From the NCBI GenBank assembly GCA_001303705.1, contig LJUI01000032.1:1-19709 (forward strand): a DNA stretch of 19,709 nucleotides. The letters run 5' to 3'. Of this stretch, positions 3,273-19,535 are shown piece after piece. Each line of letters begins with the position of its first letter. The stretch's first letter is position 1. The notes under the pieces are model-generated. The model worked only from the letters and a program-made list of their open reading frames with translations, did not search any database and had not been told where the DNA came from. The stretch comes from a candidate division TA06 bacterium SM23_40 (GTDB lineage Bacteria > LJUI01 > SM1-40). The translations under genes were made by a program, and so were the position numbers.

Positions 3273-3301
3273 TTGACTGGCGACAGTCGTGTTGATATAA
3301 T
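3273..3301 (+). promoter_or_regulatory. Strong sigma-70-type promoter upstream of tonB
   Basis: TTGACT (3273-3278), a 17-bp spacer and TATAAT (3296-3301), with an extended -10 TG at 3293-3294. This is one mismatch from full consensus. The spacer region also contains a perfect inverted repeat, GACTG-GCGA-CAGTC (3275-3288), partly overlapping the -35, which could be an operator. It lies 91 bp upstream of the tonB start and just after the regulator's stop codon, so tonB is probably transcribed independently of the kinase-regulator pair. Confidence 0.8.
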
Positions 3302-4010: not shown

Positions 4011-4039
4011 CGTCCCCTGTGATGCGTGTTACTTCTCAG

Positions 4040-4072
4040 GGCTCCGGTGGGTCCTTCGCCGGGGCCTTTTTC
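4040..4072 (+). terminator. Rho-independent terminator after tonB
   Basis: GGCTCCGG (4040-4047) pairs with CCGGGGCC (4059-4066) as an 8-bp stem with one G-U pair. It is followed directly by a run of five T (4067-4071). It lies 30 nt past the tonB stop codon. Confidence 0.85.
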
Positions 4073-4118
4073 TATGCCGGCGCCTCTCCTCCATGCCTCT
4101 CGGCGGCATATATTTGTA

Positions 4119-4147
4119 TTGACAAAATCGGCCTTCAGTATTAGGTT
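4119..4147 (+). promoter_or_regulatory. Probable sigma-70 promoter for the small Cys-rich gene
   Basis: A perfect -35 TTGACA (4119-4124), a 17-bp spacer and a moderate -10 TAGGTT (4142-4147), in a locally AT-rich patch just past the tonB terminator. Expected transcription start is near 4154, giving a leader of about 170 nt before the ATG at 4328. Confidence 0.6.
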
Positions 4148-4189
4148 TGGACTGGGGAAGGGATTCGAGAGGACGCGGACAGACAGGAC

Positions 4190-4270
4190 GGGAAGCATCG
4201 TCAGGAGATGTCGGGACCGCGCAGTGACGGGGAGCGCATCTCCATGCCGAACCGGAAAGGTCGACGATGC
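4190..4270 (+). ncRNA. Structured 5' leader, riboswitch candidate
   Basis: Nested perfect helices: GCATCGTC (4195-4202) pairs with GACGATGC (4263-4270). Inside it, GGAGATG (4204-4210) pairs with CATCTCC (4237-4243). A further GCTCT-GGTG-AGAGC hairpin follows near 4281-4294. The element lies between a promoter and a small gene, where cis-regulatory RNAs occur. Short blocks resemble the cobalamin riboswitch core in order (GGGAA, GGGACCGC, CGGGGAGCG, ATGCC, CCGGAAAGG), but the hallmark GCCACTG is absent. The ligand is therefore unproven. The pairing is seen directly; function is inferred. Confidence 0.45.
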
Positions 4271-4327
4271 TCCGACTGATAGCTCTGGTGAGAGCAGGGT
4301 GACGTCCACTCGGGGGTGAGATTAGAG

Positions 4328-4642
4328 ATGGGCTGCCCGTATCTTCATCGCGTGGAGATCCGGCTGGCTGGGGTCGATCAGTATTACTGTCGCGGATACA
4401 CCAGCGGCAAGCTGAGGGTCCCCTCACTCTTCGAGCACAACTCCTATTGCTTCTCGGCCAACTATATCAACTGCCCCGTCCTTGTCCACCGTCGACGAAG
4501 ACAGCTCCCGGGTACGGCTCGCGATCAGTTGCCTGCCCGTGACGGAGAGCAGGCGGGAAGGTCAGCCCAACGTGTTCTATCCCCCTCCGCTGACACCGGC
4601 TGCCGCTCCGGCGGGCCGCTCTCGGCTCCCTCCGCTGACTAG
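4328..4642 (+). CDS. Small four-cysteine protein, function unknown; possible frameshift
   Basis: Reading from ATG 4328 gives 104 residues. GGGGGTGAG at 4312-4320 is a well-placed ribosome site; a GTG at 4316 is also in frame. The first ~52 residues look like a real compact domain: Cys3-Pro-Tyr-Leu, Cys21, Cys41 and Cys49-Pro-Val-Leu, with aromatic residues between. This spacing suits binding of one metal ion or Fe-S cluster. I have the impression that short CP...C...C...CP domains occur elsewhere in anaerobic bacteria, but I cannot name a family. After Cys49 this frame turns into Arg/Ser-rich sequence of low coding quality. The frame starting with TTG 4482 has much higher G/C at third positions and runs to a stop at 4677-4679. 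One extra base near 4475-4483 could therefore split a single gene. No function is assigned. Confidence 0.55.
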   Translation: MGCPYLHRVEIRLAGVDQYYCRGYTSGKLRVPSLFEHNSYCFSANYINCPVLVHRRRRQLPGTARDQLPARDGEQAGRSAQRVLSPSADTGCRSGGPLSAPSAD

Positions 4643-4786
4643 CCCCAGAGACGACATTCCTGAGATGACAATCGGCTGATATCGCAGATGTCCGAGGCTC
4701 TCTGCGCGCGTTCGTTCACAGGTGGCGCACCGTGCGGATACGGATGCTTGAGTATCGGACGCCGGGACAGGGGCCTGCGGATGGCA

Positions 4787-4801
4787 CTGACAGAATGTCA
4801 G
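4787..4801. promoter_or_regulatory. Candidate activator site 1
   Basis: Perfect inverted repeat CTGACA-GAA-TGTCAG. On the reverse strand it reads GACATTCTGTCAG, the best-conserved member of three related sites. Its centre is about 238 bp upstream of the predicted sigma-54 start, within the normal range for an enhancer bound by an NtrC-type activator. Confidence 0.6.
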
Positions 4802-4828
4802 GTGCTGCAGCCCGCAGCCGGGGTAACT

Positions 4829-4842
4829 GGACATTTTTTCAG
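4829..4842. promoter_or_regulatory. Candidate activator site 2 (weaker)
   Basis: GACATTTTTTCAG at 4830-4842 matches the site-1 and site-3 pattern GACATTCTGWCAG at 11 of 13 positions. It lies midway between them: 41-43 bp from each by centre. Taken alone it would be unconvincing; the regular spacing is what supports it. Confidence 0.45.
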
Positions 4843-4871
4843 GGGAGGTGGTCATCCAGGTCAAAGTGGCG

Positions 4872-4885
4872 TGACATTCTGACAG
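4872..4885. promoter_or_regulatory. Candidate activator site 3
   Basis: TGACATTCTGACAG matches the reverse complement of site 1 at 13 of 14 positions. It overlaps a second small dyad, TTCTG-A-CAGAA (4877-4887). Its centre is about 154 bp upstream of the predicted transcript start and 84 bp (about eight helical turns) from site 1. Confidence 0.6.
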
Positions 4886-5005
4886 AACATGGCGGTTTTC
4901 GGAGGACAAGGGCACCCGTGCGATACTCCCGGACCTGCCGCTAGTCTATTGATCGCCTGTGAGTTATGTGCAAGCGTCTTATTGGTTCCCGGCCCCAGCC
5001 ATGGT

Positions 5006-5021
5006 TGGCACGCATCTTGCT
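5006..5021 (+). promoter_or_regulatory. Sigma-54 (-24/-12) promoter
   Basis: TGGCACG-N4-TTGCT, with GG at 5007-5008 and GC at 5019-5020 separated by exactly 10 bp. This matches the full sigma-54 consensus, including the preceding pyrimidine. Transcription would begin near 5032 and read into the receiver gene and the oxidoreductase operon. Three activator-like sites lie upstream, and an activator with an intact GAFTGA motif is encoded nearby. Confidence 0.88.
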
Positions 5022-5202
5022 CCTATTCAGAGAATGATGTGGTATCGAGACCTCCTCAGGTCACCATCGCCGGTTTTGTCGTGTGAGCGGGAACTATCGG
5101 AGCTCATGCGGCGTTAGGTTGAAGTGGTGCTGCGCTGAAGGAGGTTGAGCCAACGCACCGAACGGCTAGACAGGGATTGGGACGGGGAACAGAAGGCTGC
5201 TA

Positions 5203-5266
5203 CTGTATTGAATGGAGTACCTGTCAGCGGTACGCCACCTCCCGTGATGGGCTCTCCGCAATACAG
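5203..5266 (+). ncRNA. Predicted three-way junction in the operon leader
   Basis: CTGTATTG (5203-5210) pairs perfectly with CAATACAG (5259-5266), closing a region that holds two smaller hairpins. These are GTACC/GGTAC (5217-5221 with 5229-5233) and CCC/GGG (5241-5243 with 5249-5251). I do not recognise a known riboswitch class. It lies about 75 nt upstream of the first start codon, in the position of a cis-acting RNA. Confidence 0.4.
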
Positions 5267-5305
5267 ATTGGTTGACTCGCCGGGGCGACAATCGCAGTCC
5301 TTCTT

Positions 5306-5339
5306 GTTCCCCGTCTTTTTTGTCCCAGGGGCGGGGAAC
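5306..5339 (+). promoter_or_regulatory. Hairpin covering the ribosome site of the first operon gene
   Basis: GTTCCCCG (5306-5313) pairs perfectly with CGGGGAAC (5332-5339) across an 18-nt loop. The 3' arm is the only plausible Shine-Dalgarno sequence (GGGGA) for the ATG at 5341. When folded, the RNA should block initiation. A T6 run lies in the loop (5315-5320). This could be a translational switch linked to the upstream folded leader, or a constitutive brake. Confidence 0.55.
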
Positions 5340-5340
5340 G

Positions 5341-5712
5341 ATGGCGCAGAGGATCTTGGTCGTTGATGACGATCGGGAGTTTCGCAGCGCGCTCGTAAAG
5401 ATCTTCGAAAGAGAGGGCTATTCCGTCGTGCCGGCCGCCGACGGCGATGAGGCGTTGGATTGTGTGAGGGGGACTTCGTTCGCACTCATCGTGGCTGACG
5501 CTCGTATGCCAAAGCTCGGCGGGCCCGAGCTCGTTCGCCGGCTCAAGGAACAGTGTCCGGGGGCTGCGCTCATTGTGGTCTCAGCGCTGCCGGATGGTCA
5601 GATCAGGGCAGACATGCTGGAGAACGGGGCATTCGATTTTGTCTCGAAGCCGGTGAGACGGGACGAACTGCTCAGGCTGGCACGGCGTGCACTCGCGCCA
5701 CGGGAGCACTGA
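5341..5712 (+). CDS. Single-domain response regulator (CheY-like receiver)
   Basis: Stand-alone receiver of 123 residues with no output domain. It has the acidic residues D9-D11, phospho-acceptor D53 in VADARMPKLGG, the switch Ser81 and K103 in SKPVRRDEL. All catalytic receiver residues are present, so it should be phosphorylated. It is the first gene behind the sigma-54 promoter and lies 34 bp before the oxidoreductase ferredoxin gene. A role as phosphate sink, relay or feedback element for the kinase at the left edge is possible but inferred. ATG 5341 is chosen because MAQRILVVDDD begins the receiver fold exactly, and GGGGA lies 5 nt upstream inside a hairpin. Upstream in-frame starts would add non-conserved residues. 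Confidence 0.9.
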   Translation: MAQRILVVDDDREFRSALVKIFEREGYSVVPAADGDEALDCVRGTSFALIVADARMPKLGGPELVRRLKEQCPGAALIVVSALPDGQIRADMLENGAFDFVSKPVRRDELLRLARRALAPREH

Positions 5713-5746
5713 TGCTGCTCACTGGAGGAAGAGAGGTACGTGACAG

Positions 5747-6022
5747 ATGGCCAGAGTGAAGGCGCTCGAACACGCGGTCGTCACGATCGACCCGGACCAG
5801 TGCAAGGGATGCGAACTCTGCGTCATTGCCTGTCCTGAGCACGTACTGGAGATGTCTCCAGAGCTGAACCGGAGGGGATTCCATTTCTCGCGCTATATCG
5901 GGAGCGGGTGTACAGGCTGCGGATTCTGTTACTATACATGCCCTGAGGCTGGGGCGATCACCGTCTACAAAAAGGGATATACCCCTGAGGGGGAGGAAGA
6001 AGCTCCATGGCCAGAGAGCTGA
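5747..6022 (+). CDS. vorD: 2[4Fe-4S] ferredoxin-like subunit of 2-oxoacid:ferredoxin oxidoreductase
   Basis: Delta-type electron-transfer subunit carrying two [4Fe-4S] clusters. The cluster motifs are [12 protein letters not shown] (Cys19, 22, 25, 29) and [12 protein letters not shown] (Cys55, 58, 61, 65), in a 91-residue protein. It would pass electrons from the thiamine-diphosphate subunits to soluble ferredoxin. The gene is followed with a 16-bp overlap by the alpha subunit gene and then the fused beta-gamma gene, which fixes its complex. A GGAGG/GAGAGG region at 5724-5736 precedes the ATG. The branched-chain (VOR) label comes from the alpha subunit; a 2-oxoglutarate enzyme is the main alternative. 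Confidence 0.88.
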
Positions 6023-7059
6023 TCAAGGGGAACGATGCACTGGTGAAGGGAGCCATCCTGGCCGGCTGCCGATCGTATTTCGGCTATCCCATCACACCGG
6101 CATCGGAGATCGCTGAGGCGGCCGCGAGGTTCATGCCGCTCGTCGGAGGGACGTTCATTCAGGCTGAGAGCGAGGTGGCCGCTATCAATATGGTGTACGG
6201 AGCCGCGTCCGCGGGGCAGCGTACGATGACCGCATCCTCCAGTCCGGGGTTCAGCCTCAAACAGGAGGGGATTTCCTATTGCGCCGGCTCCGAACTGCCC
6301 TGCGTCATTGCCAACATTGTACGAGGAGGACCCGGGCTCGGGAACATCGCGCCTGAGCAAGGTGATTACTTCCAGACGGTGAAGGGGGGCGGTCACGGCA
6401 ATTATCGGGTCATCGTCTTCGCCCCGAACTCGGCACAGGAGATGTGCGACTTCTCGATGCTGGCATTCGATCTTGCAGACAAGTATCGCAATCCCGTGCT
6501 GATCATGAGCGATGGGTTCACGGGTCAGATGATGGAGCCGGTCGACTTCCCCGAGCCGAAACCCGTCCCGGAGAGAGACGAATCGTGGGCAGTATGCGGC
6601 GACGCCGATACGCGGCCGAACCTCATCTCGTCGATCTACCTGGAGCCCGAAGAGCTTGAAGCCCACATCAAGAAGCTGAAGGCCAAGTACGATGAGATGC
6701 AGCGGACCGAGGTGCGGTACGAGGAGTACGAGGCGGATGACGCGGAAATCATGTTGATCGGCTTTGGCATCGTGTCGCGGGTTCTCAGGAGCGTCGTTGA
6801 CAGGGCGCGGGAGAAGGGGCTGAAGGTGGGCCTGCTGAGACCCATCACGTTATGGCCGTTTCCCAGTAAGCGGATCGCCCAGCGGGCGAAACAAGTAGAG
6901 ACATTTCTGGTTGTCGAGCTGTCGACAGGCCAGATGGTTGAAGATGTACAGCTGGCTGTCATGAATGAGGCGCCGGTCAGGCTGTACTGGCGTGCCGGCG
7001 GCGTGGTGCCGACTGCAGAGGAGATCCTCGGCGAGATCGAAAAGATGATCGAGGGCTGA
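6007..7059 (+). CDS. vorB: 2-oxoacid:ferredoxin oxidoreductase alpha subunit, VorB-like
   Basis: Alpha subunit (350 aa) of a thiamine-diphosphate-dependent enzyme that oxidatively decarboxylates 2-oxoacids to acyl-CoA with reduction of ferredoxin. The N-terminal pyrimidine-binding domain has [11 protein letters not shown] (about residues 25-35) and QAESEVAAI (53-61). The RGGPGLG motif and a C-terminal transketolase-like domain with [11 protein letters not shown] follow. Length and motifs fit the VorB group (3-methyl-2-oxobutanoate oxidoreductase), whose members are near 350 aa. The related KorA (2-oxoglutarate) cannot be excluded from sequence alone. The gene overlaps the ferredoxin subunit gene and ends 1 nt before the beta-gamma gene. 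GGGAGGAAG at 5991-5999 is its ribosome site. Confidence 0.9.
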
Positions 7060-7060
7060 C

Positions 7061-8527
7061 ATGGCAAAAAAGATATTGAAGAAGCCGGATGCCCTGTATG
7101 ACGTCTTCGAGAGAAAGCCCGGTGTCGACAAGACGATGACCCACTATTGCCCGGGCTGTGGTCACGGCATCCTGCACAAGCTGATTGCAGAGGCGATCGA
7201 CGACCTCGGTGTTGCCGATCGCACCATTTTCGTGAGTCCTGTCGGGTGCAGTGTCTTCGCATATTACTACTTCGATGTGGGTAATGTCCAGGTCGCCCAC
7301 GGGCGAGCTCCCGCCGTTGCTACGGGACTCAAGCGTGCCAGCCCTAACAGCATCGTCATCTCGTACCAGGGCGATGGAGATCTTGCGGCGATCGGGGGAA
7401 ACAACATCCTGCAGGCCGCCAACAGAGGTGAGTTATTCACTGTCTTCTTCATCAACAACGGCATCTATGGAATGACCGGCGGGCAGATGGCCCCGACTAC
7501 ACTCATCGGCCAGAAGACAACGACTACGCCGTACGGCCGGACCATCCGGAATGAGGGATACCCGATACGGGTGTGCGAGCTGCTCGCGACACTAGAATCT
7601 CCGGTCTACATCGAGCGCACCGCGATGACCGATGCAAAGAACATTGCCCGGACCCGTCGTGCCGTCAGGAAGGCGCTCAGGTGTCAGGTCGATCGGAAGG
7701 GATTCTCATTGGTCGAGGTACTCTCTAGCTGTCCCAGCGGGTGGAAGGTCGAACCGCGTGAGGCGCTCAAGTGGATCGAAGAGAAGATGATGCCGTACTT
7801 CCCTCTGGGCGTGTACAAGGATGTGATCGAGGAGCGAGAGCCTGTCGAGCTCGTCGAGCGTACCTACACCTCGGCCGATATCATGAAGGGGTTGGCACTG
7901 GCGGACGGAGAGGCAGCGGCCAGGGCTCCGCGGCACGAGGACGTAGGCGAAATGGCCATGAAGATAGCGGGCTTCGGCGGCCAGGGCATCCTCTTTCTCG
8001 GGCTGGCGCTGGCTGAGACCGGGATGGATGAGGGGCTGCATGTAACGTGGCTGCCGTCTTATGGTCCGGAGATGCGGGGGGGCACCGCAAACTGCCATGT
8101 CATTCTGTCCGGACGCAGAGTCGGTGCTCCGCTCGTCTCAATCCCCAACGTCTTGATTGCGCTCAACCGACCCTCACTCGAGAAGTTCGAGCCGGCCTTG
8201 AGTGAGGGAGGTCTTATCCTCTATGATAGTTCGCTCATCGATATCAGTCCATCACGAAAGGACATCATACCGCTTCCTGTGCCGGCGACGAAGTTGGCGG
8301 ATGAACTGGGGAGCACGAGGGCTGCCAACATGGTCGCCATGGGGGCGCTGATCGGATACACGGATGTGGTCAGCGTGGACGGGGCGATCGCAGCCCTGCC
8401 CAGGCTGGTGAAGAGAGATGAGCTCATATCGCTCAATGAAGCTGCCATCAGGAAGGGCGTCGAACAGGGTCGGCAGCTCCGGGCGAAGCAGAAAGTGGCG
8501 GTAGGAACAGGAAAAGGAGCACGCTGA
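7061..8527 (+). CDS. vorA: Fused beta-gamma subunit of 2-oxoacid:ferredoxin oxidoreductase
   Basis: One 488-residue chain joins two subunits that are usually separate. The beta part (about 1-285) binds thiamine diphosphate: HYCPGCGHG (28-36), GDGD (104-107), and Asn residues in GGNN and INNG. The gamma part (about 297-475) has GFGGQG (304-309) and SYGPEMRGGTANC (333-345), the signature of the CoA-interacting gamma domain. An acidic, Ala-rich linker at about 280-297 lies between them. The reading frame is continuous, with no hint of a frameshift. With the two preceding genes this gives a complete delta-alpha-(beta-gamma) enzyme. Both halves appear intact. The substrate is inferred from the VorB-like partner. 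Confidence 0.9.
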   Translation: MAKKILKKPDALYDVFERKPGVDKTMTHYCPGCGHGILHKLIAEAIDDLGVADRTIFVSPVGCSVFAYYYFDVGNVQVAHGRAPAVATGLKRASPNSIVISYQGDGDLAAIGGNNILQAANRGELFTVFFINNGIYGMTGGQMAPTTLIGQKTTTTPYGRTIRNEGYPIRVCELLATLESPVYIERTAMTDAKNIARTRRAVRKALRCQVDRKGFSLVEVLSSCPSGWKVEPREALKWIEEKMMPYFPLGVYKDVIEEREPVELVERTYTSADIMKGLALADGEAAARAPRHEDVGEMAMKIAGFGGQGILFLGLALAETGMDEGLHVTWLPSYGPEMRGGTANCHVILSGRRVGAPLVSIPNVLIALNRPSLEKFEPALSEGGLILYDSSLIDISPSRKDIIPLPVPATKLADELGSTRAANMVAMGALIGYTDVVSVDGAIAALPRLVKRDELISLNEAAIRKGVEQGRQLRAKQKVAVGTGKGAR

Positions 8528-8727
8528 ACTTCTGAAACAGTGACTGTTCGCCCTACGGTACTCAGGGCCCAGATGTCTCCAATTGGGCGCCGGCCGGATG
8601 TGGGATCGAGCTGGCAGGAGGGTGAGTCGCAGCGGTGAGTGCGACGCCCGCTGTCGGCCGTCGTGGCCGGAGGAAGAGGCTCGTCTGGGCTCCTTTCAGG
8701 TTGGCACCATACATCCGGGGGAGGATC
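8528..8727 (+). other. 200-bp gap with palindrome and alternative hairpins
   Basis: This is the largest gap inside the operon and splits it into two blocks. It holds a perfect palindrome AACAGT-G-ACTGTT (8536-8548). It also holds two mutually exclusive small helices: GCCCT 8550-8554 with AGGGC 8564-8568, or GCCCA 8567-8571 with TGGGC 8584-8588. No T-run terminator and no clear promoter is seen. TTGGCACC at 8701-8708 recalls a -24 element but lacks the matching GC at -12. Confidence 0.4.
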
Positions 8728-9858
8728 ATGGACATCGGGGTGCCGAAGGAGGTGCGCCAGCACGAAAAGCGAGTCGGGATCACGCCGGGGGGAGTGAGAC
8801 TGCTCGTCCGCAAGGGGCACCGCGTCTTTGTGCAGTCCGGGGCGGGTGAGGGCTGCGGCTTCCTCGACGAACACTATCAGGCGGTCGGAGCCGAAATAGT
8901 CTTTGACGCCGGAGAGGCTTACGGACGAGCGGATGTCGTCCTCAAGGTGACCGGCCTAATCCCGGAAGAATACGAACTGCTCCGGGAGGGTCAGGTCATC
9001 TTTGCATTCTTTCACCTTGCAGCGGCAGCGAGGCAGCTCGTTGACATCCTATTGAAGAAGGAGATCACGGCAGTCGCCTACGAGACGGTGCAGAATCCAG
9101 ATGGAGAGCTGCCCATCCTGGTGCCGATGAGCGAGATCGCCGGCCGCATGGCCCCTGCGATTGCATCTCACTGCCTCTCCACGCCGGCAGGGGGGAAAGG
9201 GATCCTGCTGGCAGGGATCCCCGGGGTCCCTGCAGCTGAGGTCGTCATCATCGGAGGCGGGGTGGTGGGATACAATGCCGCGCGTTCGTTCCTCGGCATA
9301 GGCGCCCACGTGACGCTTCTCGATCGCAAGGTCTCTGTCCTCCAGCGGCTCGACTCTCTGCTCGGGGGGCATCTGAACACGATGATCGCCACGAGGCACA
9401 ACATCACGCGGGTCTGTCGTTATCTCGACGTGCTCGTCGGCTGTATCCTCCTCCCGGGCGCCCGGACGCCGCACGTGGTCACCGAGGAGATGGTGCGTTC
9501 GATGCGGCGACGTTCCGTCATTCTCGACATAGCGATCGATCAGGGTGGATGCGTAGAAACGAGCCATCCGACGACACTGGGCGATCCGACATACATCTCG
9601 GAGGGGATCATACACTATTGCGTCCCGAACATGCCTGGCCGGGCATCACGGACATCATCGCATGCGCTCACAAACGCCTCAGTTCCCTTCCTGCTCGACT
9701 TTCTCGAGGCTGGTGAAGAGCGTGCGCTTGTCGAAAATCGCGCTCTCGCCGCCGGGGTCAACACCTACAGAGGACACCTCGTCAACGAGTCGGTGGCCGC
9801 CTCGACTGACATGGAGGCCGTCTCGCTGGAGTCGATACTCGGAGCCACGAAGAGATGA
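8728..9858 (+). CDS. ald: Alanine dehydrogenase
   Basis: NAD-dependent oxidative deamination of L-alanine to pyruvate and ammonia, or the reverse. The 376-residue length is normal for the family. Seen: [10 protein letters not shown]...ERV-type start with Arg15, substrate-site Lys73 in VVLKV, His96 in FAFFHLAA, the MSEIAGRMA motif, the nucleotide-binding [14 protein letters not shown] (172-185), and DIAIDQGGC (267-275) with the catalytic Asp271. ATG 8728 is preferred over the in-frame GTG at 8635: family proteins begin exactly at this MDIGVPKE, and GGGGGAGG lies at 8717-8724. The next gene overlaps by 4 bp (ATGA). In this setting it supplies pyruvate to the pyruvate-type oxidoreductase, or removes pyruvate and reductant as alanine. 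Confidence 0.95.
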
Positions 9859-11183
9859 ACTGGGTGGACATCTACAAGTCGAAGATCACCACTGCTGAGG
9901 ATGCGGCGACGTACATCAAATCAGGCGACCGCGTCTACATCGGTGCGGGATGTGGGGTGCCCCACAGTCTCGTAGACGCTATGGTCGGATGCGCCGCAGA
10001 TCTGTGGAATGTCGAGATCACCCACCTGTTGACCATCGGGCCGGCGCCCTACGCCAAACCTGAGATGGCCGAACACTTCCGCCACAACGCGGTCTTTGTG
10101 GGTGGGAATGTGCGCGAGGCGATCAACTCCGGGAGAGGGGACTACATCCCCATCTACCTCGCCGATGTGCCGAAGCTCTACCTGCAGGGCCACCTGCCTC
10201 TCGATGTCGCGCTCGTCAGCCTCTCGCCGCCCGATGAGCACGGGTTCTGCAGCTTCGGGATCGAGGTTGGCTGCACCAAGCCCGCAGCGCATGCCGCCAA
10301 GAAAGTGATCGCCGAGGTGAACACAGAGATGCCGCGCACCCTGGGGGATAGCTTCATCCACGTATCGAAGGTGGATCAGTTCGTTGAGGTGTCGCGGCCG
10401 CTCGACGTGCTGGGAAAGCCTGAAATATCGGATGTCCACCGTCGTATCGGCCGGTACATAGCTGATCTGATCGAGGATGGTTCGACTCTCCAGATGGGCA
10501 TCGGCGCGATCCCTGACGCTGTTCTCCTCTTTCTCGATGAGAAGGAGGACCTCGGGGTGCATACGGAGATGTTTTCGGATGGGCTGATAGAGCTCATCGA
10601 GCGCGGGATCGTGACGAACGACAAGAAGACGGTCCATCCGGGCAAGGCGATCGTCGGGTTTCTTCTCGGGTCGAGAAGACTGTACGAATTCGTTGACAAC
10701 AACGCACTCATCGAGTTCCATCCCACGGACTATGTGAACAACCCGCTCCTCATCAGCCAGAACGATAAGATGGTGGCGATCAACTCCGCCATTCAAGTCG
10801 ATATCACCGGCCAGGTGAGCGCGGACTCGATCGGCTACTATATCTACAGCGGGTTCGGCGGTCAGGTCGATTTCATGCGGGGAGCGGCGCGCTCCAGCGG
10901 AGGGAAGCCGATCACTGCGCTTCCGTCCACGGCGAAGGGCGGCGCGGTCTCTCGCATCGTCCCCCACCTGGACGAGGGTGCGGGGGTGGTCACAAACAGG
11001 GCGGACGTTCACTATGTGGTGACAGAGTACGGAGTCGCCTATCTCTACGGCAAGAACCTGAGGCAGCGCGTGCGGGCGCTGATCGATCTTGCCCATCCGA
11101 ACTTCCGGGAAGATCTGTTGCGCTTCGCACATGAACACAACTATCTGCCGCGCGCAACCGCTGTGGGCCGGGATGTTGGGTGA
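9855..11183 (+). CDS. Acetyl-CoA hydrolase/transferase family CoA-transferase (4-hydroxybutyrate/acetate type)
   Basis: Moves CoA between an acyl-CoA and a free acid through a glutamyl-CoA intermediate. It has 442 residues, typical of the 4-hydroxybutyrate and butyrate:acetate CoA-transferases. Motifs: MGIGAIPDAV (214-223), catalytic Glu in VHTEMFSDG at residue 238 (the position known in AbfT), the oxyanion/CoA-binding GFGGQVDF (333-340), and ITALPSTAKGG followed by VVTEYGVAYLYG. The start overlaps the ald stop by 4 bp, so translation is probably coupled. Beside oxidoreductases that make acyl-CoA, it could release acetate or branched-chain acids while conserving the thioester. The true acid pair cannot be read from the sequence. 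Confidence 0.9.
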   Translation: MNWVDIYKSKITTAEDAATYIKSGDRVYIGAGCGVPHSLVDAMVGCAADLWNVEITHLLTIGPAPYAKPEMAEHFRHNAVFVGGNVREAINSGRGDYIPIYLADVPKLYLQGHLPLDVALVSLSPPDEHGFCSFGIEVGCTKPAAHAAKKVIAEVNTEMPRTLGDSFIHVSKVDQFVEVSRPLDVLGKPEISDVHRRIGRYIADLIEDGSTLQMGIGAIPDAVLLFLDEKEDLGVHTEMFSDGLIELIERGIVTNDKKTVHPGKAIVGFLLGSRRLYEFVDNNALIEFHPTDYVNNPLLISQNDKMVAINSAIQVDITGQVSADSIGYYIYSGFGGQVDFMRGAARSSGGKPITALPSTAKGGAVSRIVPHLDEGAGVVTNRADVHYVVTEYGVAYLYGKNLRQRVRALIDLAHPNFREDLLRFAHEHNYLPRATAVGRDVG

Positions 11184-11246
11184 ACGTGCCGAATCGGTTG
11201 CTTCCGAGCAGCGTGGCGTCGACAGGAACGAGAGGTGTATAGGGGC

Positions 11247-11825
11247 ATGAGCGAAAGCGGAGTGATCGAGATCCGATGGCACGGCAGAGGAGGCCAGGGG
11301 GTGGTGACCGCAGCGCGCCTCCTCGCGGGCGCGGCCCTGAGGGCCGATAAGTATTTCCAGGCCTTTCCCGAGTTCGGCCCGGAGAGGATGGGAGCACCCA
11401 TCGTCGCCTTTAATCGCATCTCATCCCGGCCATTCTCCAACTACTCCCAGATCTCGAACCCCGATGTGGTCGTGGTGATCGACCCGACCCTGCTCGGGGC
11501 AGAGGCTGTCATCGCCGGTGTTGGTGAGGACGCGATCTTCATCGCGAACAGCTCTGAGGAGGCGCGGCCGGTTGCCGGGCGTCTGGGCCTGGAGCCCGGT
11601 CAGGTGTACGTTGTGGACGCCTCGAGGATCGCACGTGAGACGATCGGAAGAGATATTCCTAATACTGCGATGCTGGGTGGCGTCGTCGGGATTACGGAGA
11701 TCGTGCCACTCGATGACGTGATCGAAGAGTTGAAGGAGCTGATGGGGGAGAAGCTGGGCTCGGAGAGGATAGAAGGTAACATAGAGGCGATTCGCAGGAC
11801 TTTTGAGACGATACGAGCCAGATAG
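11247..11825 (+). CDS. porC: Pyruvate-type ferredoxin oxidoreductase gamma subunit
   Basis: Gamma subunit (192 aa) of a four-subunit pyruvate/2-oxoacid:ferredoxin oxidoreductase. It has the N-terminal RWHGRGGQGVVTAA (10-23) and the FPEFGPERMGAPIVAFNRIS block (about 40-59), which is typical of the gamma domain that closes over CoA. The C-terminal region includes NTAMLGGVVGI. ATG 11247 is preferred over in-frame GTG 11235: family proteins start close to the IEIRWHGRGGQG strand, and GAGAGGTG at 11230-11237 is well placed. It follows the CoA-transferase by 63 bp and starts the gamma-delta-alpha-beta order common for bacterial and archaeal POR operons. This gamma is separate, unlike the fused one upstream. 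Confidence 0.9.
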   Translation: MSESGVIEIRWHGRGGQGVVTAARLLAGAALRADKYFQAFPEFGPERMGAPIVAFNRISSRPFSNYSQISNPDVVVVIDPTLLGAEAVIAGVGEDAIFIANSSEEARPVAGRLGLEPGQVYVVDASRIARETIGRDIPNTAMLGGVVGITEIVPLDDVIEELKELMGEKLGSERIEGNIEAIRRTFETIRAR

Positions 11826-11851
11826 GCGCGAGAAGAGAAAGGCGGAAGAGG

Positions 11852-12370
11852 ATGGCCCGTAAGAAGGAGACGGCAGCTAGGAAGACGAGGGCGCAGACCC
11901 GGAAAGGGAGGAAGACGGAGCGTGTGAAGAGGGCGGGGGGCGCGAAGAAAGTACGTACGTCGGCCGCCGGCGTGAAGACGTCGACAAGAACGAGAAAAAA
12001 GGGGGAGGCCACCTCAGCTATCGGCGCGAAGAGGCCCGCAGGGAGGAAACGGGCGAAAGGCCGGCAGGCAGGAGGGGAGAAGCCTGGATGGCGCGACATC
12101 CCGCGCGGAGGTCTGATTGTCAAGGCCGGCAACGCAGAGACGTACGAGACAGGCTCGTGGAGGACAAAGGCGCCGGCCATCGACTTCGACCGATGCACGA
12201 ACTGTCTCTTCTGCTGGATCTGGTGCCCCGACGGGGCTATTCAGGTGAAGGATGGCAAGGTCGTTGGTATTGATCTGTTTCACTGTAAGGGATGCGGGAT
12301 CTGTGCCCATGAGTGTCCCAAAGAGGCCATCGCCATGGTAGATGAGCGGAGGACAACACATGTCGCATAG
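11852..12370 (+). CDS. porD: POR delta ferredoxin subunit with a long basic N-terminal tail
   Basis: Delta subunit with two [4Fe-4S] clusters: CTNCLFCWIWCP (Cys115, 118, 121, 125) and CKGCGICAHECP (Cys145, 148, 151, 155). The core from residue 79 (GWRDIPRGGLI...TGSWRT) is the normal ~95-residue PorD. It is preceded by an unusual tail of about 78 residues with 29 Lys/Arg and only 4 acidic residues. The tail is rich in Ala, Thr and Gly, like the tails of histone-H1-like bacterial proteins. The tail is in frame with a good ribosome site (AAAGGCGG, 11838-11844) at the ATG. Internal GTG codons (residues 25 and 41) could give shorter forms. The gene overlaps the alpha gene by 11 bp. The tail's function is unknown. 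Confidence 0.88.
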   Translation: MARKKETAARKTRAQTRKGRKTERVKRAGGAKKVRTSAAGVKTSTRTRKKGEATSAIGAKRPAGRKRAKGRQAGGEKPGWRDIPRGGLIVKAGNAETYETGSWRTKAPAIDFDRCTNCLFCWIWCPDGAIQVKDGKVVGIDLFHCKGCGICAHECPKEAIAMVDERRTTHVA

Positions 12371-13604
12371 AGGGAGACGCACAGGATCAGGGGCTCGGGT
12401 GCTGAGGGCTCCGGCACCTGCCAAGGGCACGATCGTGAAGGCACTGAGGGGTGCCGACGCCGTGGCCGAGGCGATGCGCCAGGTCAACCCGGGAGTTGTC
12501 GCCGCCTATCCGATCACACCTCAGACGGACGTCGTGGAACGGTTCTCCGAATTCGTCGCCGATGGAGAAGTCGGCACCGAATTCGTCACCGTTGAGAGTG
12601 AGCATAGCGCGATGAGTGCATGCATCGGCGCGGCTGCCGCCGGGTGCAGGGTGATGACAGCGACCTCTGCCAACGGGTTGGCTCTCATGTGGGAGATGCT
12701 CTATATCGCTGCCTCCTACCGGGCGCCGATCGTGATGGCAGTGGCGAACAGGGCTCTGAGCGGCCCGATAAATATCCACTGTGACCACAGTGACTCAATG
12801 GGGGCGAGGGACAGCGGTTGGATTCAGATTTATTCCTCGACGGTCGAGGAAGTGTATGACAATGTCATCCAGGCGGTGCGGATCGGCGAGTCGAAAGACG
12901 TGAGATTACCGGTGATGGTGATGTTCGACGGGTTCATCATCAGTCACCTCTTGGAACGCGTCCGGGTGTTGCCCGACAAGAAGGTCCAGTCGTTCATCGG
13001 TCCCCCGCGGCCCGTCTACTCCTTGCTCGATATTGATCATCCCCTCACATATGGGCCGCTCGATCTGTTCGACTACTACTTTGAACACAAGCGCCAGCAG
13101 GTCGATGCAATGGAGTATGCCGAAAAGGCGATCACGGACGTGGGAAAGGAATACGGTCAGGTTTCGGGTCGGCTATATGGATATTACGAGGCGCACGAGC
13201 TCGATGATGCGGAGGTAGCGGTGGTGGCTCTCGGCTCAACTGCCTCGACGATAAAGGGACTCATTCCTGAGATCCGGGATGAGCGGATCAAGGGCGGCCT
13301 GCTGAAGGTGCGGCTATTCCGTCCCTTCCCGACCAGAGATGTCGTTCGGAGGCTGTCAGCGACGAAGGCTGTCGCGGTCCTCGATCGCTCGGCGTCATTC
13401 GGGGCTGATGGTGGACCTCTCTATCTCGAGGTGTCGAACGCCCTCGGCAGGGCGGGGGCGAAGACGAAGGTGACCAACTATATCTATGGCCTGGGAGGGC
13501 GCGACATTTCGCACGAGCACATTATGCGTGTCTATCAGGATCTGACAAGAATGGCGCGTGGGCGCCTCAAGCCCGGTACACGGTATCTGGGAGTGAGAGA
13601 GTAG
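12360..13604 (+). CDS. porA: Pyruvate-type ferredoxin oxidoreductase alpha subunit
   Basis: Alpha subunit (414 aa) that forms the substrate and pyrimidine side of the thiamine-diphosphate site. Motifs: AAYPITPQTDVVERF (48-62), TVESEHSAMSACIGAAAAG (77-95), SANGLALMWEML, and a C-terminal transketolase domain with KVRLFRPFP and AVLDRSASFGADGGPLY. ATG 12360 is chosen because GGAGGA lies 6 nt before it; ATG 12342 is in frame but has no such site. The first ~25 residues are a basic extension (MSHRGRRTGSGARVLR) not expected in this family. It overlaps porD and is followed by porB after 26 bp. Pyruvate is the likely substrate given Ald and MaeB nearby, but a branched-chain 2-oxoacid is possible. Confidence 0.92.
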   Translation: MSHRGRRTGSGARVLRAPAPAKGTIVKALRGADAVAEAMRQVNPGVVAAYPITPQTDVVERFSEFVADGEVGTEFVTVESEHSAMSACIGAAAAGCRVMTATSANGLALMWEMLYIAASYRAPIVMAVANRALSGPINIHCDHSDSMGARDSGWIQIYSSTVEEVYDNVIQAVRIGESKDVRLPVMVMFDGFIISHLLERVRVLPDKKVQSFIGPPRPVYSLLDIDHPLTYGPLDLFDYYFEHKRQQVDAMEYAEKAITDVGKEYGQVSGRLYGYYEAHELDDAEVAVVALGSTASTIKGLIPEIRDERIKGGLLKVRLFRPFPTRDVVRRLSATKAVAVLDRSASFGADGGPLYLEVSNALGRAGAKTKVTNYIYGLGGRDISHEHIMRVYQDLTRMARGRLKPGTRYLGVRE

Positions 13605-13630
13605 AGCACCAATCGGAGAAAGGTCGAACG

Positions 13631-14608
13631 ATGGCCAACTTGAAAGAGCTAGCTACGAGGGAAGAGCTGTTGACGGGCGGGCATCGCCTGTGTGCCGGCT
13701 GTGCCGCGTCGATCATCGTCAGACAGATACTGCTCTCGTCGAAGTATCCTCTCGTCGTCTCTTCGGCGACAGGGTGTCTCGAAGTGGCGACGACCATCTA
13801 TCCATATACGGCATGGAAGACAGCATGGATCCACAGCGCATTCGAGAACGTCGCCGCTACCATTAGCGGGGTGGAGGCGGCATACACCTATCAACGTCGG
13901 ACAGGCACGCTCGATCAGGAGTTCCGGTTCATCGCGTTCGCCGGAGATGGGGGCACGTACGATATTGGAATCCAGGCTCTCTCCGGGGCGCTGGAGCGCG
14001 GGCACCAGTTCCTGTACGTCTGCTATGACAACCAGGCCTATATGAATACTGGCATTCAGCGTTCGAGCGCCACTCCTGCCGGCGCATGGACGACGACGTG
14101 TCCGCCCGGCAAGCAGAGCCGCGGCAAGCGCCAGTATCGGAAGAACCTGACGGAAGTCGTCGCCGCACACAGGATCCCCTATGCGGCTCAGGCATCGCCC
14201 AGCCACTGGAAGGATCTGGTGACGAAGATCGAGAAAGCTCTGGAGGTTGAGGGTCCTGCGTTCATGAACATCATCGCCCCCTGTCCACGGGGCTGGCGAC
14301 ACGAGACAGATGAGACGATCGAGATCGCCCGTCTCGCCGTCGAGAGCCGGTTCTGGCCCCTTTTCGAGGTGGAGGAGGGACGGTGGCGGCTCAATTACCG
14401 CCCGCGCAGGCCGATCCCGGTCGTCGACTGGCTCAGGCGGCAGGGGCGGTTCAAACATCTATTCACCGAGGGATGCGAGTCGATGCTCGATGAGATCCAG
14501 GCTCGCGTCGATAGGGAATGGGAAGACCTGGTCAGCAGGTGCGCCGCCGACAAGGAACGAGCAGCCGGGGGCGAATCCAGGACCGGAGAAGGTGGTGCTG
14601 AGCAATGA
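13631..14608 (+). CDS. porB: Pyruvate-type ferredoxin oxidoreductase beta subunit
   Basis: Beta subunit (325 aa) binding thiamine diphosphate and one [4Fe-4S] cluster. Candidate cluster ligands are Cys21 and Cys24 (LCAGC), Cys49 (ATGCLEV) and Cys218 (APCPRGW), the four positions expected in PorB. The thiamine-diphosphate motif is GDGGTYDIG (105-113), with [11 protein letters not shown] (131-141) supplying Asn ligands. The tail is Glu/Gly/Ala-rich. The start has MANLKELA just before the conserved domain. The stop overlaps the malic enzyme start by 4 bp (ATGA), which couples pyruvate oxidation to malic enzyme synthesis. It completes the porC-D-A-B set. Confidence 0.93.
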
Positions 14609-16857
14609 TCAGAAAAGAAGATGCTCTCAATTACCATTCGGAGGGTCGCAGGGGCAAGATCGAGGTGCGGGCGACGAAGCCGTGCCTCACACAGCGGGAT
14701 CTCTCGTTGGCGTATACGCCGGGAGTGGCTGAGCCCTGCCGGGAGATCGTCCGCGACGCACAGGAGGCGTTCACCTACACCGCGAAGGGAAACCTGGTGG
14801 CAGTTGTTTCGAACGGGACGGCTGTCCTAGGCCTGGGGAACATCGGCGCGCTTGCCGGGAAGCCGGTGATGGAAGGGAAGGGCGTCCTGTTCAAGCGGTT
14901 TGCGGACATCGATGTCTTCGATCTTGAGGTCGACACGGAGGACTCAGACGAGTTGATCCGTGTCGTTAGACTCCTCGAGCCGACATTTGGTGGAATCAAT
15001 CTCGAGGATATCAAGGCGCCCGAGTGTTTCTACATCGAGGAGACATTGAAACGGGAGATGGCGATTCCGGTCTTCCACGACGATCAGCACGGCACGGCGA
15101 TCATCTCGGGTGCCGCGCTCCTCAACGCTCTTGAGCTGGTGGGGAAGCGGATGGAAGATGTCAAGGTGGTGTACAACGGCGCAGGAGCGGCGGGGATCGC
15201 GTGCGCAGCCCTGTACATCACTCTCGGCGTCAAACCCGAGAACATGATCATGTGCGACTCGTTGGGAGTCATTTACAAGGGTCGTGAGAAGGGGATGAAC
15301 CCGTACAAGGAGCGATTCGCCGTCGACACCGACCTGCGTACCCTCGAGGATGCGATGAAGGGATCAGATGTCTTCGTGGGGGTATCGGTCGCCGATGTCG
15401 TGAGCAAGAAGATGGTGCGGTCGATGGCCGATCGTCCGATCGTCTTCGCTATGGCCAACCCCGATCCGGAGATCACCTACCCGGACGCCAAGGCGGCGCG
15501 CGACGACATCATCATGGCCACGGGGAGGAGCGACTATCCGAACCAGGTGAACAATGTTCTTGGATTCCCCTTCATCTTCCGGGGGGCACTCGACGTGCGG
15601 GCCACGGCGATCAATGAGGCGATGAAGGTGGCGGCCTGCCATGCTCTCGCAGCTCTGGCGAAAGAGGGCGTGCCGGAATCGGTCTCGAAGGCTTACGGAG
15701 TGGAGGGATTCGAATTCGGGCCGGACTACATCATCCCGAAGCCCCTCGACCCCCGCGTGCTGTTATGGGAGGCCCCGGCCGTGGCCAAGGCGGCGATCGA
15801 CTCCGGGGTCGCCGGGAACGAGCTCGATATGGACGTGTACCGAGAACAGCTGGAGGCGAGACTCGGCCGCTCGCGCGAGGTGATGCGGGTCGTCATCAAC
15901 AAGGCGAAGAAGTCACCGAAGCGGATCGTTTATCCTGAGGGCGACCACGAGAAGATACTGAGGGCGAGCCAGATCATCATCGACGAGGGAATCGCTCATC
16001 CGATCTTGCTGGGAAACAAAAAAGTCATCAAGCAGAAGATCGAGGATCTGAAGCTCGATCTGCCCCGCATACAGATCTTCGACCCATACGCGTGCGATCG
16101 GTTCGAAGATTATGCCCGTGAGTTCTACGAACTGCGCCAGCGGCACGGGGTGACGGTCCACTGGGCCCGGAAGATGATGCGCAACCGCAACTACTTCGGA
16201 TCGATGATGGTCCGCATGGGGGATGCCGACGGCCTCATCTCAGGAGTGACCCAGAACTACCCGGAGACGATCCGGCCTGCCCTTCAGGTGATCAAGGTAC
16301 GTGATGATGTGAGGCGCGTCTCGGGCGTGTACATGATGATCGTGAAGAACGACGTCTACTTCTTTTCCGATGCAACGGTCAACATCGACCCGACTGCTGA
16401 CGATCTCGCTGAGATCGCCATCTGCTGCGCGGAGCAGGTGAGACGGTTCGAGATCGAGCCGAGGGTGGCGATGCTCTCCTTCTCAAACTTCGGTTCGACG
16501 AAACACCCGCTTTCCGAAAAGGTGAAAAGAGCGGTGGAGATCGTGAAAGAGAGGGTTCCCGACCTCGCGATCGACGGAGAGATGCAGGCCGATACTGCGG
16601 TCGTGCCCGAGATCATCCGGGAGCTGTACCCGTTCTGTCAGATCCCCAGTGGCGCCAACGTGCTCATCTTCCCGGACCTCCAATCAGGAAACATCGCGTA
16701 CAAGCTGCTCGCGCGGCTGGGCGGGGCAGAGGCGATCGGCCCCATCCTGATGGGGATGAGCAAACCCGTCCACGTCCTGCAATTCGGCGGCGGCGAGGTA
16801 AAAGACGTCGTCAACATGACAGCCGTCGCCGTCGTCGACGCCCAAAACCTCACCTAA
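14605..16857 (+). CDS. maeB: MaeB-type malic enzyme fused to a phosphotransacetylase-like domain
   Basis: Converts malate to pyruvate and CO2 with reduction of NAD(P). It has 750 residues, normal for MaeB. The malic domain has the [11 protein letters not shown] start, [11 protein letters not shown], general-base Lys92 in [14 protein letters not shown], metal ligands Glu135-Asp136 ([12 protein letters not shown]) and Asp159/160 (FHDDQHGTA), and the nucleotide-binding [12 protein letters not shown] (188-199). From about residue 430 ([15 protein letters not shown]...) a phosphate acetyl/butyryltransferase fold follows. In studied MaeB proteins this part is regulatory, sensing acetyl-CoA, rather than catalytic. 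Coupled to porB by overlap, it feeds pyruvate into the oxidoreductase. Cofactor choice (NAD or NADP) cannot be judged here. It is the last gene of the operon; no clear terminator hairpin with a T run follows. Confidence 0.95.
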
Positions 16858-17089: not shown

Positions 17090-17136
17090 AACTTATTGTA
17101 GTTCTTGATGTTTCTTAATTGTGGTGGGCACTCGAT

Positions 17137-17164
17137 CTGGGGCTGCTTCTGTGCGTGGCCCCAG
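17137..17164. repeat. 7-bp inverted repeat upstream of hypF
   Basis: CTGGGGC (17137-17143) and GCCCCAG (17158-17164) form a perfect stem with a 14-nt loop, followed by the palindrome GAATATTC (17165-17172). No T run follows, so it is not a standard terminator. It may be an operator or leader hairpin for hypF. Confidence 0.4.
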
Positions 17165-17172
17165 GAATATTC

Positions 17173-17202: not shown

Positions 17203-17246
17203 AGACGATCTGTTGATCAGTAACCTCGTCTCTCTTGGGACCTTCG

Positions 17247-19535
17247 GTGGAACAGAGGCTCAAAATCATCGTCCGTGGCGTAGTGCAGGGGGTTGGGTTT
17301 CGCCCCTTTGTCTATCGGCTCGCCCGTTCCCACGATCTCGGGGGGTATGTTGCCAATACCGATCAGGGAGTGACCATCGAGGTTCAGGGTGAGAAGGCTC
17401 GGGTGGCGGAGTTTCTCGACCGGCTGCGCACCGATCATCCCCCGCTGGCCGAGATTACGGACGTCGAGATCGCAGAGCTGCCTCTTAACTCACGGAAGGC
17501 ATTCAGTATCGAGGGGAGCACCTCGGTCGGCGAAGAGGAGGCGCTCGTAACACCGGACGTCGCGACCTGCGACGACTGCCTGCGAGAGCTCCGGGATCAG
17601 GACGATCGTCGGTACCGCTATCCGTTCATCAACTGCACCAACTGCGGCCCTCGGTTCACGATCATCGCTCATCTCCCCTACGATCGGCCGCGGACGACCA
17701 TGCGCGCGTTCCGGATGTGTCCGGCCTGTGACGCAGAGTACCACGACCCTGCCGACAGGCGGTTCCATGCCCAGCCGAATGCCTGCCCTGTCTGCGGTCC
17801 CTCACTAACCTACGTGGCTGAGGACGGGAGCGAAGTGCGCGGCGCCGATCCGCTTGCTGCGGCAGTCGATGCTCTGCGCGCCGGGAAGGTGATAGCAGTG
17901 AAGGGGCTCGGTGGGGTGCACCTCGCCTGCGACGCGCGTCGCGACGATGTGGTGGCGCGGCTCCGGGCGCGGAAGGACCGGGAGGAGAAACCGCTCGCGA
18001 TCATGGTCTCTGGGATGGAGGAGGTGGAGGCGCTCTGCGAGGTGTGTCCGGAAGAGCGCGCTCTCCTCGTCTCGCCGAGGCGGCCCATCGTCCTGATGAG
18101 GAAACGTCAAGGAGCAGAGATATCCGATCTCGTCGCGCCGCACCAGAAGTATCTGGGTGTGATGCTGCCATACACGCCGCTTCACCATCTGCTCCTCCGC
18201 GATTCCGGAATGGTTCTCATAATGACGAGCGGCAACAGGAGCGAGGAGCCCATCGTTCACACAAACCCCGGTGCGCTCGATCGCCTCACTTCCATCGCCG
18301 ACGGCTTTCTCCTTCATGATCGAGAGATCGAGACTCGCTGCGACGACTCGGTGACGCGAGTCTGGCGCGGCAAGGAACTCATCGTTCGGCGCTCGCGGGG
18401 ATATGCTCCCCTTCCGATCGAGATGCCGGTAGGGTGTGATCGAAGCATCCTCGCCTGCGGCGGCGAGCTCAAGAATACCTTCTGTCTCACCCGCGGGTCC
18501 GAGGCGATCCTCAGCCATCACATCGGCGATCTGAAGGAGGAGCCGGCGTTCGACTCATTTGTACAGGGGATCGAGCACCTGAGACGGCTCTTCCACATCG
18601 ATGTTCAGGTCGTCACCCATGATCTCCATCCCGACTATCTGTCGACGCGGTATGCGTTGTCACTCGAAGGAGTGAGGAATGTCGGGGTGCAGCATCACCA
18701 TGCGCACGTGGCGAGTTGTCTGGCAGAACACGGGCGCGATGAGCCGGTCATCGGGATTTCGTTCGACGGTGCGGGGTACGGCCCGGACGGCACGATCTGG
18801 GGAGGCGAGTTCCTGATCGCCGATCTCGGTGGATATGAGCGTGCGGGGCGGCTCGCCCACCTCTCCATGCCCGGCGGCGATCGGGCGACTGAGGAGCCCT
18901 GGAGGATGGCACTCTCACTCCTGTACCGTGTCTTCGGAGAGGATCTGCCGCCGCTAAGGTGTGCTGCTGTGCGTGAGCGGGAACGCCGGGGCTGGCCCGT
19001 GTTGGCGCGCATGATCGATGTCGGTCTCAGGACTCCCTTGACCTCGAGTGCGGGCCGGTTGTTCGATGCCGTCGCCAGCCTTGCAGGAGTGCGCGACTAC
19101 ATCAGTTACGAGGGCCAGGCGGCGATCGAGCTCGAGATGGCCGCCGATGAGCGCGAACCGGGCGCGTACTCGTTCGGTCTTTCCGTCGAGCCTGGAGAGG
19201 ACGGCAAGGAGGTCCTCGTCGTCGACCCTGAACCCATGGTGCACGAACTCGTTTCCGATCTTCTCGCTGGACAGGAAGCCTCGATTGTTGCTGCACGATT
19301 TCATCGCGGTCTGGCACAGATCACCGGTCAGACTGCGCAGCGCATTCGCGATCGCGGCGGGCCGGGGACGGCGGTCCTGACCGGCGGGGTGTTTCAGAAC
19401 ATGTTCTTGTGTGAGCTTGTGGCCGGAGAACTGGAGGAGCGAGGCTTCGAGGTTCTTGTCCATAGCCGTGTTCCTCCGAACGATGGTGGTATCTCCCTCG
19501 GCCAGGCAGCGGTGGCGGCCGTCCGGAGTCGGTGA
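17247..19535 (+). CDS. hypF: [NiFe] hydrogenase maturation carbamoyltransferase HypF
   Basis: Transfers the carbamoyl group of carbamoyl phosphate to HypE on the way to the CN ligands of [NiFe] hydrogenase. It has 762 residues, the usual length. Domains in order: acylphosphatase (about 1-90) with VQGVGFRP (13-20); zinc region with Cys108/111, 130/133, 158/161 and 180/183; YrdC-like domain (about 200-375) with KGLGGVHLACDA; and a Kae1-like domain (about 400-762) with VQHHHAHVAS, SFDGAGYG and LTGGVFQNMFL. GTG 17247 is preferred, with GGGA at 17237-17240 before it. TTG 17235 is in frame but lacks a ribosome site. It is followed by hypC. No hydrogenase structural gene is in the window. Confidence 0.96.
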   Translation: MEQRLKIIVRGVVQGVGFRPFVYRLARSHDLGGYVANTDQGVTIEVQGEKARVAEFLDRLRTDHPPLAEITDVEIAELPLNSRKAFSIEGSTSVGEEEALVTPDVATCDDCLRELRDQDDRRYRYPFINCTNCGPRFTIIAHLPYDRPRTTMRAFRMCPACDAEYHDPADRRFHAQPNACPVCGPSLTYVAEDGSEVRGADPLAAAVDALRAGKVIAVKGLGGVHLACDARRDDVVARLRARKDREEKPLAIMVSGMEEVEALCEVCPEERALLVSPRRPIVLMRKRQGAEISDLVAPHQKYLGVMLPYTPLHHLLLRDSGMVLIMTSGNRSEEPIVHTNPGALDRLTSIADGFLLHDREIETRCDDSVTRVWRGKELIVRRSRGYAPLPIEMPVGCDRSILACGGELKNTFCLTRGSEAILSHHIGDLKEEPAFDSFVQGIEHLRRLFHIDVQVVTHDLHPDYLSTRYALSLEGVRNVGVQHHHAHVASCLAEHGRDEPVIGISFDGAGYGPDGTIWGGEFLIADLGGYERAGRLAHLSMPGGDRATEEPWRMALSLLYRVFGEDLPPLRCAAVRERERRGWPVLARMIDVGLRTPLTSSAGRLFDAVASLAGVRDYISYEGQAAIELEMAADEREPGAYSFGLSVEPGEDGKEVLVVDPEPMVHELVSDLLAGQEASIVAARFHRGLAQITGQTAQRIRDRGGPGTAVLTGGVFQNMFLCELVAGELEERGFEVLVHSRVPPNDGGISLGQAAVAAVRSR

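Follow-up and report, generated by a model that had tools for sequence, protein, structure and literature searches.

A predicted sigma-54-dependent operon for 2-oxoacid oxidation and its conserved enhancer triad in candidate division TA06 bacterium SM23_40

What switches on a compact set of genes for 2-oxoacid and pyruvate metabolism in a bacterium from an uncultured phylum? Eleven such genes lie at positions 5341-16857 of a 19,709-nucleotide stretch (the window) of contig LJUI01000032.1 from candidate division TA06 bacterium SM23_40, whose 2.88-Mb draft genome has no relative nearer than domain level among the genomes searched. The answer that we propose, with a probability of roughly two in three, is that an upstream histidine kinase and NtrC-family activator act through three enhancer dyads on one sigma-54 promoter, which would drive all eleven genes as a 2-oxoacid oxidation operon. 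An earlier note on this DNA had placed the cluster behind one sigma-54 promoter under two-component control; it had not listed the dyads, the kinase-NtrC pair, or a terminator-like leader.

The promoter search used a GG(-24)/GC(-12) element near TGGCAC-N5-TTGCW as its criterion. The site upstream of the cluster (Table 1) is an exact match and the sole site in the window with fewer than two mismatches, in support of the one promoter proposed earlier. Genome-wide, the exact pattern occurs at 19 sites, versus 1 for a reversed-pattern control, and further exact sites precede pilA, a prepilin peptidase gene, and a glutamate-dehydrogenase-like gene (identities taken from translations, without a family-library search). 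This excess, together with the position of sites ahead of other genes, indicates that the genome uses the sigma-54 promoter class, and the operon is predicted to depend on it. The glutamate-dehydrogenase-like open reading frame (G000:C33, L142, in the same genome) has its exact site 49 bp ahead and a sigma-54 activator nearby, which would make it a second amino-acid catabolic target.

Upstream of the promoter stand three dyads that share the form TGACA-N3-TGTCA. Successive dyads are 41 and 43 bp apart, which puts the first and third at eight helical turns, and the dyads start 134-218 bp upstream of the sigma-54 site, which fits the ~80-250 bp expected for activator sites. Shuffling the intergenic region never produced such a triad (0/3000). 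A search for paired dyads at 41 bp returned one place in the source genome, the operon site itself, and five in a Latescibacterota genome (G059); reversed-pattern controls gave none anywhere, and one extra match in another genome (G060) is probably due to chance.

The candidate partner of these dyads is encoded near the start of the window. Its translation contains a receiver, an AAA+ domain with a visible GAFTGA motif, and Fis-type helix-turn-helix domains, and a histidine kinase gene adjoins it, as expected of an NtrC-family two-component system. This NtrC protein falls in one clade (100/99) with those of loci L009, L022, L058, L069, L083, L084, L095, and L061, and the NtrC paralogs of its own genome fall outside. 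Genes of the clade adjoin or lie near the CoA-transferase gene catT in other phyla (a few kilobases away in L061). Their recognition helices are alike, one form being AARTIYRK, and unlike those of the paralogs, with the L095 sequence incomplete at this point. In all six loci tested, the NtrC gene is preceded at 42-101 bp by a dyad with no more than one mismatch (background, 28 per 1.28 Mb), which suggests that NtrC is autoregulated in lineages with this arrangement. Likewise, the sequences suggest that the dyads are binding sites for the window's NtrC group. The two tandem helix-turn-helix domains of the window protein have near-identical recognition helices, and its L009 relative ends with one such domain. 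FixL-like heme sensing was considered for the kinase, whose PAS domain matches the FixL and DosP structures, and was rejected because the candidate heme histidine is not conserved in the L009 kinase.

Matching arrays occur in the Latescibacterota genome G059. At its locus L009 (JACQVL010000164.1), a histidine kinase gene related to that of the window and the closest NtrC gene adjoin divergent genes for alanine dehydrogenase (alaDH) and CoA-transferase; between the latter two sits a triad with the same 41- and 43-bp spacing, one sigma-54 site facing each gene. In the G059 arrays at the alaDH/catT promoters and near the por operon, the first and third dyads are 83-84 bp apart, and at a TLC-HEAT-cNMP transporter locus (L182) the spacing down to the sigma-54 site, 41/43/134 bp, is identical to that in the window. 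Another G059 array is near an operon with gltD-like, methylenetetrahydrofolate reductase, and pyruvate:ferredoxin oxidoreductase (por) genes. Arrays L183, L184, and L182 are found, respectively, with radical-SAM, NtrC, and NnrS-like genes, with genes for a universal stress protein and a heavy-metal P-type ATPase, and with the transporter. These neighbors hint at a redox or anoxia regulon.

The enhancer triad, the orthologous NtrC clade, and the Latescibacterota arrays thus strengthen the earlier claim of two-component control. The note had also named a dedicated receiver as first gene. The receiver is there, with its acceptor Asp and Lys kept, but it has no DNA-binding domain, and the likely regulator is instead the NtrC protein. 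A partly similar setting was seen at G059 locus L190 (G059:C354), where genes for a PAS kinase and a stand-alone receiver precede a dyad pair and a sigma-54-like site. The L190 receiver is weakly like that of the window; at 37.5% identity, versus 35.7% between the window receiver and the receiver of the window NtrC, it was rejected as a clear ortholog.

Table 1. Positions of the predicted features in the window
Feature	Positions	Strand	Basis
Soluble sensor histidine kinase (PAS, HisKA, HATPase), probable NtrC partner	43-1581	+	domain search; overlaps NtrC gene
NtrC-family sigma-54 activator	~1562-3253	+	receiver, AAA+ with GAFTGA, two tandem Fis-type helix-turn-helix domains
Enhancer dyad 1, TGACAGAATGTCA	4788-4800	.	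exact pattern, only 2 places in genome
Enhancer dyad 2, GGACATTTTTTCA	4829-4841	.	2 mismatches; 41 bp past dyad 1
Enhancer dyad 3, TGACATTCTGACA	4872-4884	.	1 mismatch; 43 bp past dyad 2
Sigma-54 promoter, TGGCACGCATCTTGCT	5006-5021	+	perfect match; start expected near 5032
Leader RNA, terminator-like three-way junction, long closing stem, then U6	5171-5326	+	fold prediction
Stand-alone receiver (REC), no output domain	5341-5712	+	domain search
2-Oxoacid:ferredoxin oxidoreductase delta (ferredoxin) subunit	5747-6022	+	profile match
VorB-type alpha subunit	6007-7059	+	NF005507, 553 bits vs cut-off 399
Beta (thiamine pyrophosphate) and gamma subunits fused in one protein	7061-8527	+	profile and domain searches
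Alanine dehydrogenase	8725-9858	+	TIGR00518, 444 bits vs cut-off 392 (passed)
Acyl-CoA:acetate-type CoA-transferase	9855-11183	+	acetyl-CoA hydrolase/transferase family
Pyruvate:ferredoxin oxidoreductase (POR) gamma subunit	11250-11825	+	profile match
POR delta subunit, basic N-terminal extension	11852-12370	+	profile match
POR alpha subunit	12342-13604	+	best family PorA_Arch, 495 bits, cut-off 550
POR beta subunit	13631-14608	+	best family PorB, 363 bits, cut-off 405
MaeB-type malic enzyme, C-terminal PTA-like domain	14605-16857	+	domain search
Possible operon terminator ahead of hypF	17136-17165	+	11-pair stem, weak U tract

All eleven genes are co-directional on the plus strand and tightly packed, as the earlier note had described. 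Only two intergenic gaps exceed 40 bp; they had been put at 200 bp (8528-8727) and 63 bp and measure 197 bp (8528-8724) and 66 bp (11184-11249). Remaining junctions are overlaps or short gaps. The first oxidoreductase is assigned to the 2-oxoisovalerate:ferredoxin oxidoreductase (VOR) type, with that predicted substrate, because its alpha subunit passes the curated cut-off. The second (11250-14608) is nearest to archaeal-type POR, with alpha and beta scores both under the equivalog cut-offs. The CoA-transferase reaches its domain family level and fails the butyryl-CoA:acetate equivalog TIGR03948 (311 versus 674.8 bits). Four more POR-domain loci exist elsewhere in the genome, so the operon is not its sole source of 2-oxoacid oxidoreductase. 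Beyond the operon, hypF (hydrogenase maturation carbamoyltransferase, 17235-19535) suggests an [NiFe] hydrogenase in the organism, and a TonB C-terminal-domain gene (3393-4010) lies between the kinase-NtrC pair and the operon, flanked by a good sigma-70 promoter (3273-3301) and a strong terminator (4038-4068).

What is known of these families suggests that the enzymes oxidize amino-acid-derived 2-oxoacids and pyruvate to acyl-CoA with ferredoxin, exchange alanine and malate with pyruvate, and turn acyl-CoA into the acid through CoA transfer. The proposal that the functions converge on pyruvate fits the POR, alanine dehydrogenase, and malic enzyme, but not the first oxidoreductase, which is of the VOR type. 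This type, and its grouping with alanine dehydrogenase and CoA-transferase in other phyla, points to amino-acid-derived 2-oxoacids as substrates; the operon enzymes seem to fit amino-acid/2-oxoacid oxidation better than a fermentation of pyruvate alone.

A survey of the 80 best CoA-transferase loci shows how far the module extends. alaDH is directly upstream of the CoA-transferase gene in 74, and 20 have a VOR-type korA no more than 6.5 kb away. A malic enzyme gene comes afterwards in six; the order in Ignavibacteria (L010) is alaDH-catT-maeB-korDABC. The korDABC-alaDH-catT block of Krumholzibacteriota, Zixibacteria, Acidobacteria, and others has the same enzymes, often in identical order, but usually without por, a receiver, or a detectable sigma-54 site, and few blocks include malic enzyme. 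In G059, no close relative of the VOR alpha subunit was found (best, 43%), and a malic-enzyme search, run without a positive control, gave no match. The gene-neighborhood check called for in the earlier note therefore has a divided outcome: alaDH-catT, with kor in some cases and maeB in a few, recurs across phyla, whereas the full order with por and receiver does not appear in the relatives. Since no por homologue near the module exceeds 33% identity, the joining of por and receiver to it is special to the source genome among those seen. Scored with a weight matrix that approximates the published consensus, five of 74 relatives (Latescibacterota, KSB1 twice, Chloroflexi, and Acidobacteria) have a strong sigma-54 site ahead of the alaDH/catT/kor module and none has one there on the reverse strand, which makes sigma-54 control a recurrent minority trait.

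Gene content, promoter, dyads, and the conservation of the dyad array and NtrC clade are read from the DNA; on them we build a mechanism in which the binding regulator, the signal, the direction of the enzymes, the role of the receiver, and readthrough of the leader are inferred. The sensor kinase would phosphorylate the NtrC-type activator, which would bind the three helically phased dyads and loop to sigma-54 holoenzyme at the promoter, activating the operon. With ferredoxin as acceptor, the VOR-type enzyme would then oxidize amino-acid-derived 2-oxoacids to acyl-CoA, and the POR-type enzyme would do so with pyruvate. Pyruvate would be interconverted with alanine by alanine dehydrogenase and with malate by malic enzyme, and the CoA-transferase would hand the CoA of acyl-CoA over to acetate. 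For the stand-alone receiver, a feedback role is probable, at a guess as a phosphate sink for the same kinase, and the leader may restrict transcription begun at the sigma-54 site.

Several observations weigh against this mechanism. Some 93% of related modules lack a strong upstream sigma-54 site, and at Krumholzibacteriota-type loci the dyad stands ahead of the NtrC gene rather than korD. At the G059 por (C194) and C16 loci, the nearest sigma-54 site on the minus strand has the dyads downstream of it; at the por and radical-SAM loci of that genome, this site is on the far side of the array, leaving either orientation possible. The source genome encodes 18 strong sigma-54 activator domains, so the NtrC protein is a candidate activator. 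Also, a strong terminator-like structure with a U6 tract lies between promoter and operon, so sigma-54 dependence of the operon may be less than full, and readthrough or attenuation needs explaining.

Among the alternatives, a reductive or assimilatory role survives best, though we consider it unlikely. The 2-oxoacid oxidoreductases and malic enzyme are reversible, and could serve as 2-oxoacid synthases and in CO2 fixation rather than in fermentation; moreover, in G059 a methylenetetrahydrofolate reductase gene and a probable pterin methyltransferase-like gene accompany por. The recurrence of alanine dehydrogenase and VOR beside the CoA-transferase in the survey is, however, more typical of amino-acid oxidation.

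It is also improbable that the cluster is two or three units, with receiver and VOR under sigma-54 and alaDH-catT and por-maeB expressed separately. The two gaps would allow this, as would the lack of similar por genes near the module in relatives and the distribution of alaDH, catT, and por over distinct units in G059. Yet neither an internal promoter nor a terminator was found on the plus strand at either gap, and the other junctions overlap or are short. A scan of the gaps for sigma-70 promoters, bearing on the strong internal promoters that the earlier note would have counted against itself, found none convincing, the best (8701-8729; 9/12 matches) overlapping the alaDH start. The distinct G059 units, for their part, adjoin the same dyad array, which fits co-regulation.

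The leader raises a further alternative. Modeled folding gives it the look of an intrinsic terminator whose loop is large and structured: 5181-5191 pairs perfectly with 5305-5315 (11 bp), followed by U6 at 5316-5321. The minimum free energy is -77.3 kcal/mol with a z of -6.4, a value flattered by a frame picked after sequence inspection; a blind sliding scan gave -3.26 near the leader and its minimum, -4.75, elsewhere. An 11-bp perfect stem with T6 appeared in 0/300 window shuffles. Just ahead of the start codon, GGGGCGGGGAAC (5328-5339) repeats the 5' arm GGGACGGGGAAC and might pair with the 3' arm in its place. A covariance-model search of 4000-5400 against Rfam found no credible match, and a known riboswitch was rejected on this basis; a 5S-like stretch near 4200-4310 had no Rfam score, and a mir-2766 match at 10916, within coding sequence and under the gathering score, was put down to chance. 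The leader may be read through, may attenuate transcription, or may end mainly short RNAs from the promoter. In the last case, the promoter would chiefly yield a ~290-nt noncoding RNA ending at the U6 tract, with the operon expressed by leak-through or regulated antitermination. The strong fold and the rarity of the stem in shuffles would suit this, and sigma-54-driven noncoding RNAs next to activator genes have been reported in Desulfovibrio (PMC4641369). We nevertheless doubt it strongly: no other promoter was found to serve the operon, the leader at the G059 catT site with the same array is short, with ~60 bp between site and gene, and the leader is present once in the genome, which also led us to reject a repeat or mobile origin. 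Finally, control of the promoter by another of the 18 activators is very unlikely given the orthologous NtrC clade with its common recognition helix and common dyad.

Our preferred reading, control of the operon by the kinase-NtrC pair, has partial precedents. The earlier note knew of no such set described as one two-component-regulated unit. A full-text search for papers combining alanine dehydrogenase, sigma-54, ferredoxin oxidoreductase, CoA-transferase, and operon found none, although the factor is often written otherwise; a precedent does exist in the luo operon of Desulfovibrio vulgaris (DVU3025-3033), which contains por, lactate enzymes, pta, and ack, has a sigma-54 promoter by prediction, and has been mapped among the targets of NtrC-type response regulators, DVU3023 being one (PMC4481167, PMC4641369). 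This is the closest precedent, sharing a POR-type oxidoreductase, promoter class, and regulator type. It differs in having lactate dehydrogenases, Pta, and Ack at its core and a single-gene por, with no VOR, alanine dehydrogenase, CoA-transferase, or leading receiver described. Second, DVU0569 is a predicted sigma-54 regulator of alanine dehydrogenase (PMC4641369). Its regulon likewise has an activator gene adjoining that of alanine dehydrogenase and a conserved upstream motif, but involves a one-component activator and ald alone. Third, Clostridiales have sigma-54 activators over amino-acid fermentation that includes 2-oxoacid:ferredoxin oxidoreductase, namely, ZypR, predicted to control tyrB-iorAB-butK, and the Stickland regulators (PMC6615313). 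The ZypR system differs in lineage, enzyme set, and motif, which is reported to consist of TGT and ACA repeats 10-12 bp apart (PMC6615313).

A wider proposal is possible, if doubtful: an undescribed NtrC regulon, marked by the phased TGACA-N3-TGTCA triad in this lineage and in Latescibacterota, may connect the ferredoxin-linked oxidation of amino acids and pyruvate with functions in stress and redox (universal stress protein, P-type ATPase, and NnrS-like protein), with the leader acting here as an attenuator. We regard the conserved triad and its NtrC clade as the most valuable part of the finding. They offer a specific cis code, three dyads ~42 bp apart followed by a sigma-54 site, through which a two-component system appears to govern the central anaerobic carbon metabolism of uncultured phyla. 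The range of sigma-54 control predicted for ferredoxin-linked oxidation of 2-oxoacids now extends beyond Desulfovibrio and Clostridiales, and the code lets the regulon, and hence its signal, be traced in other metagenome-assembled genomes.

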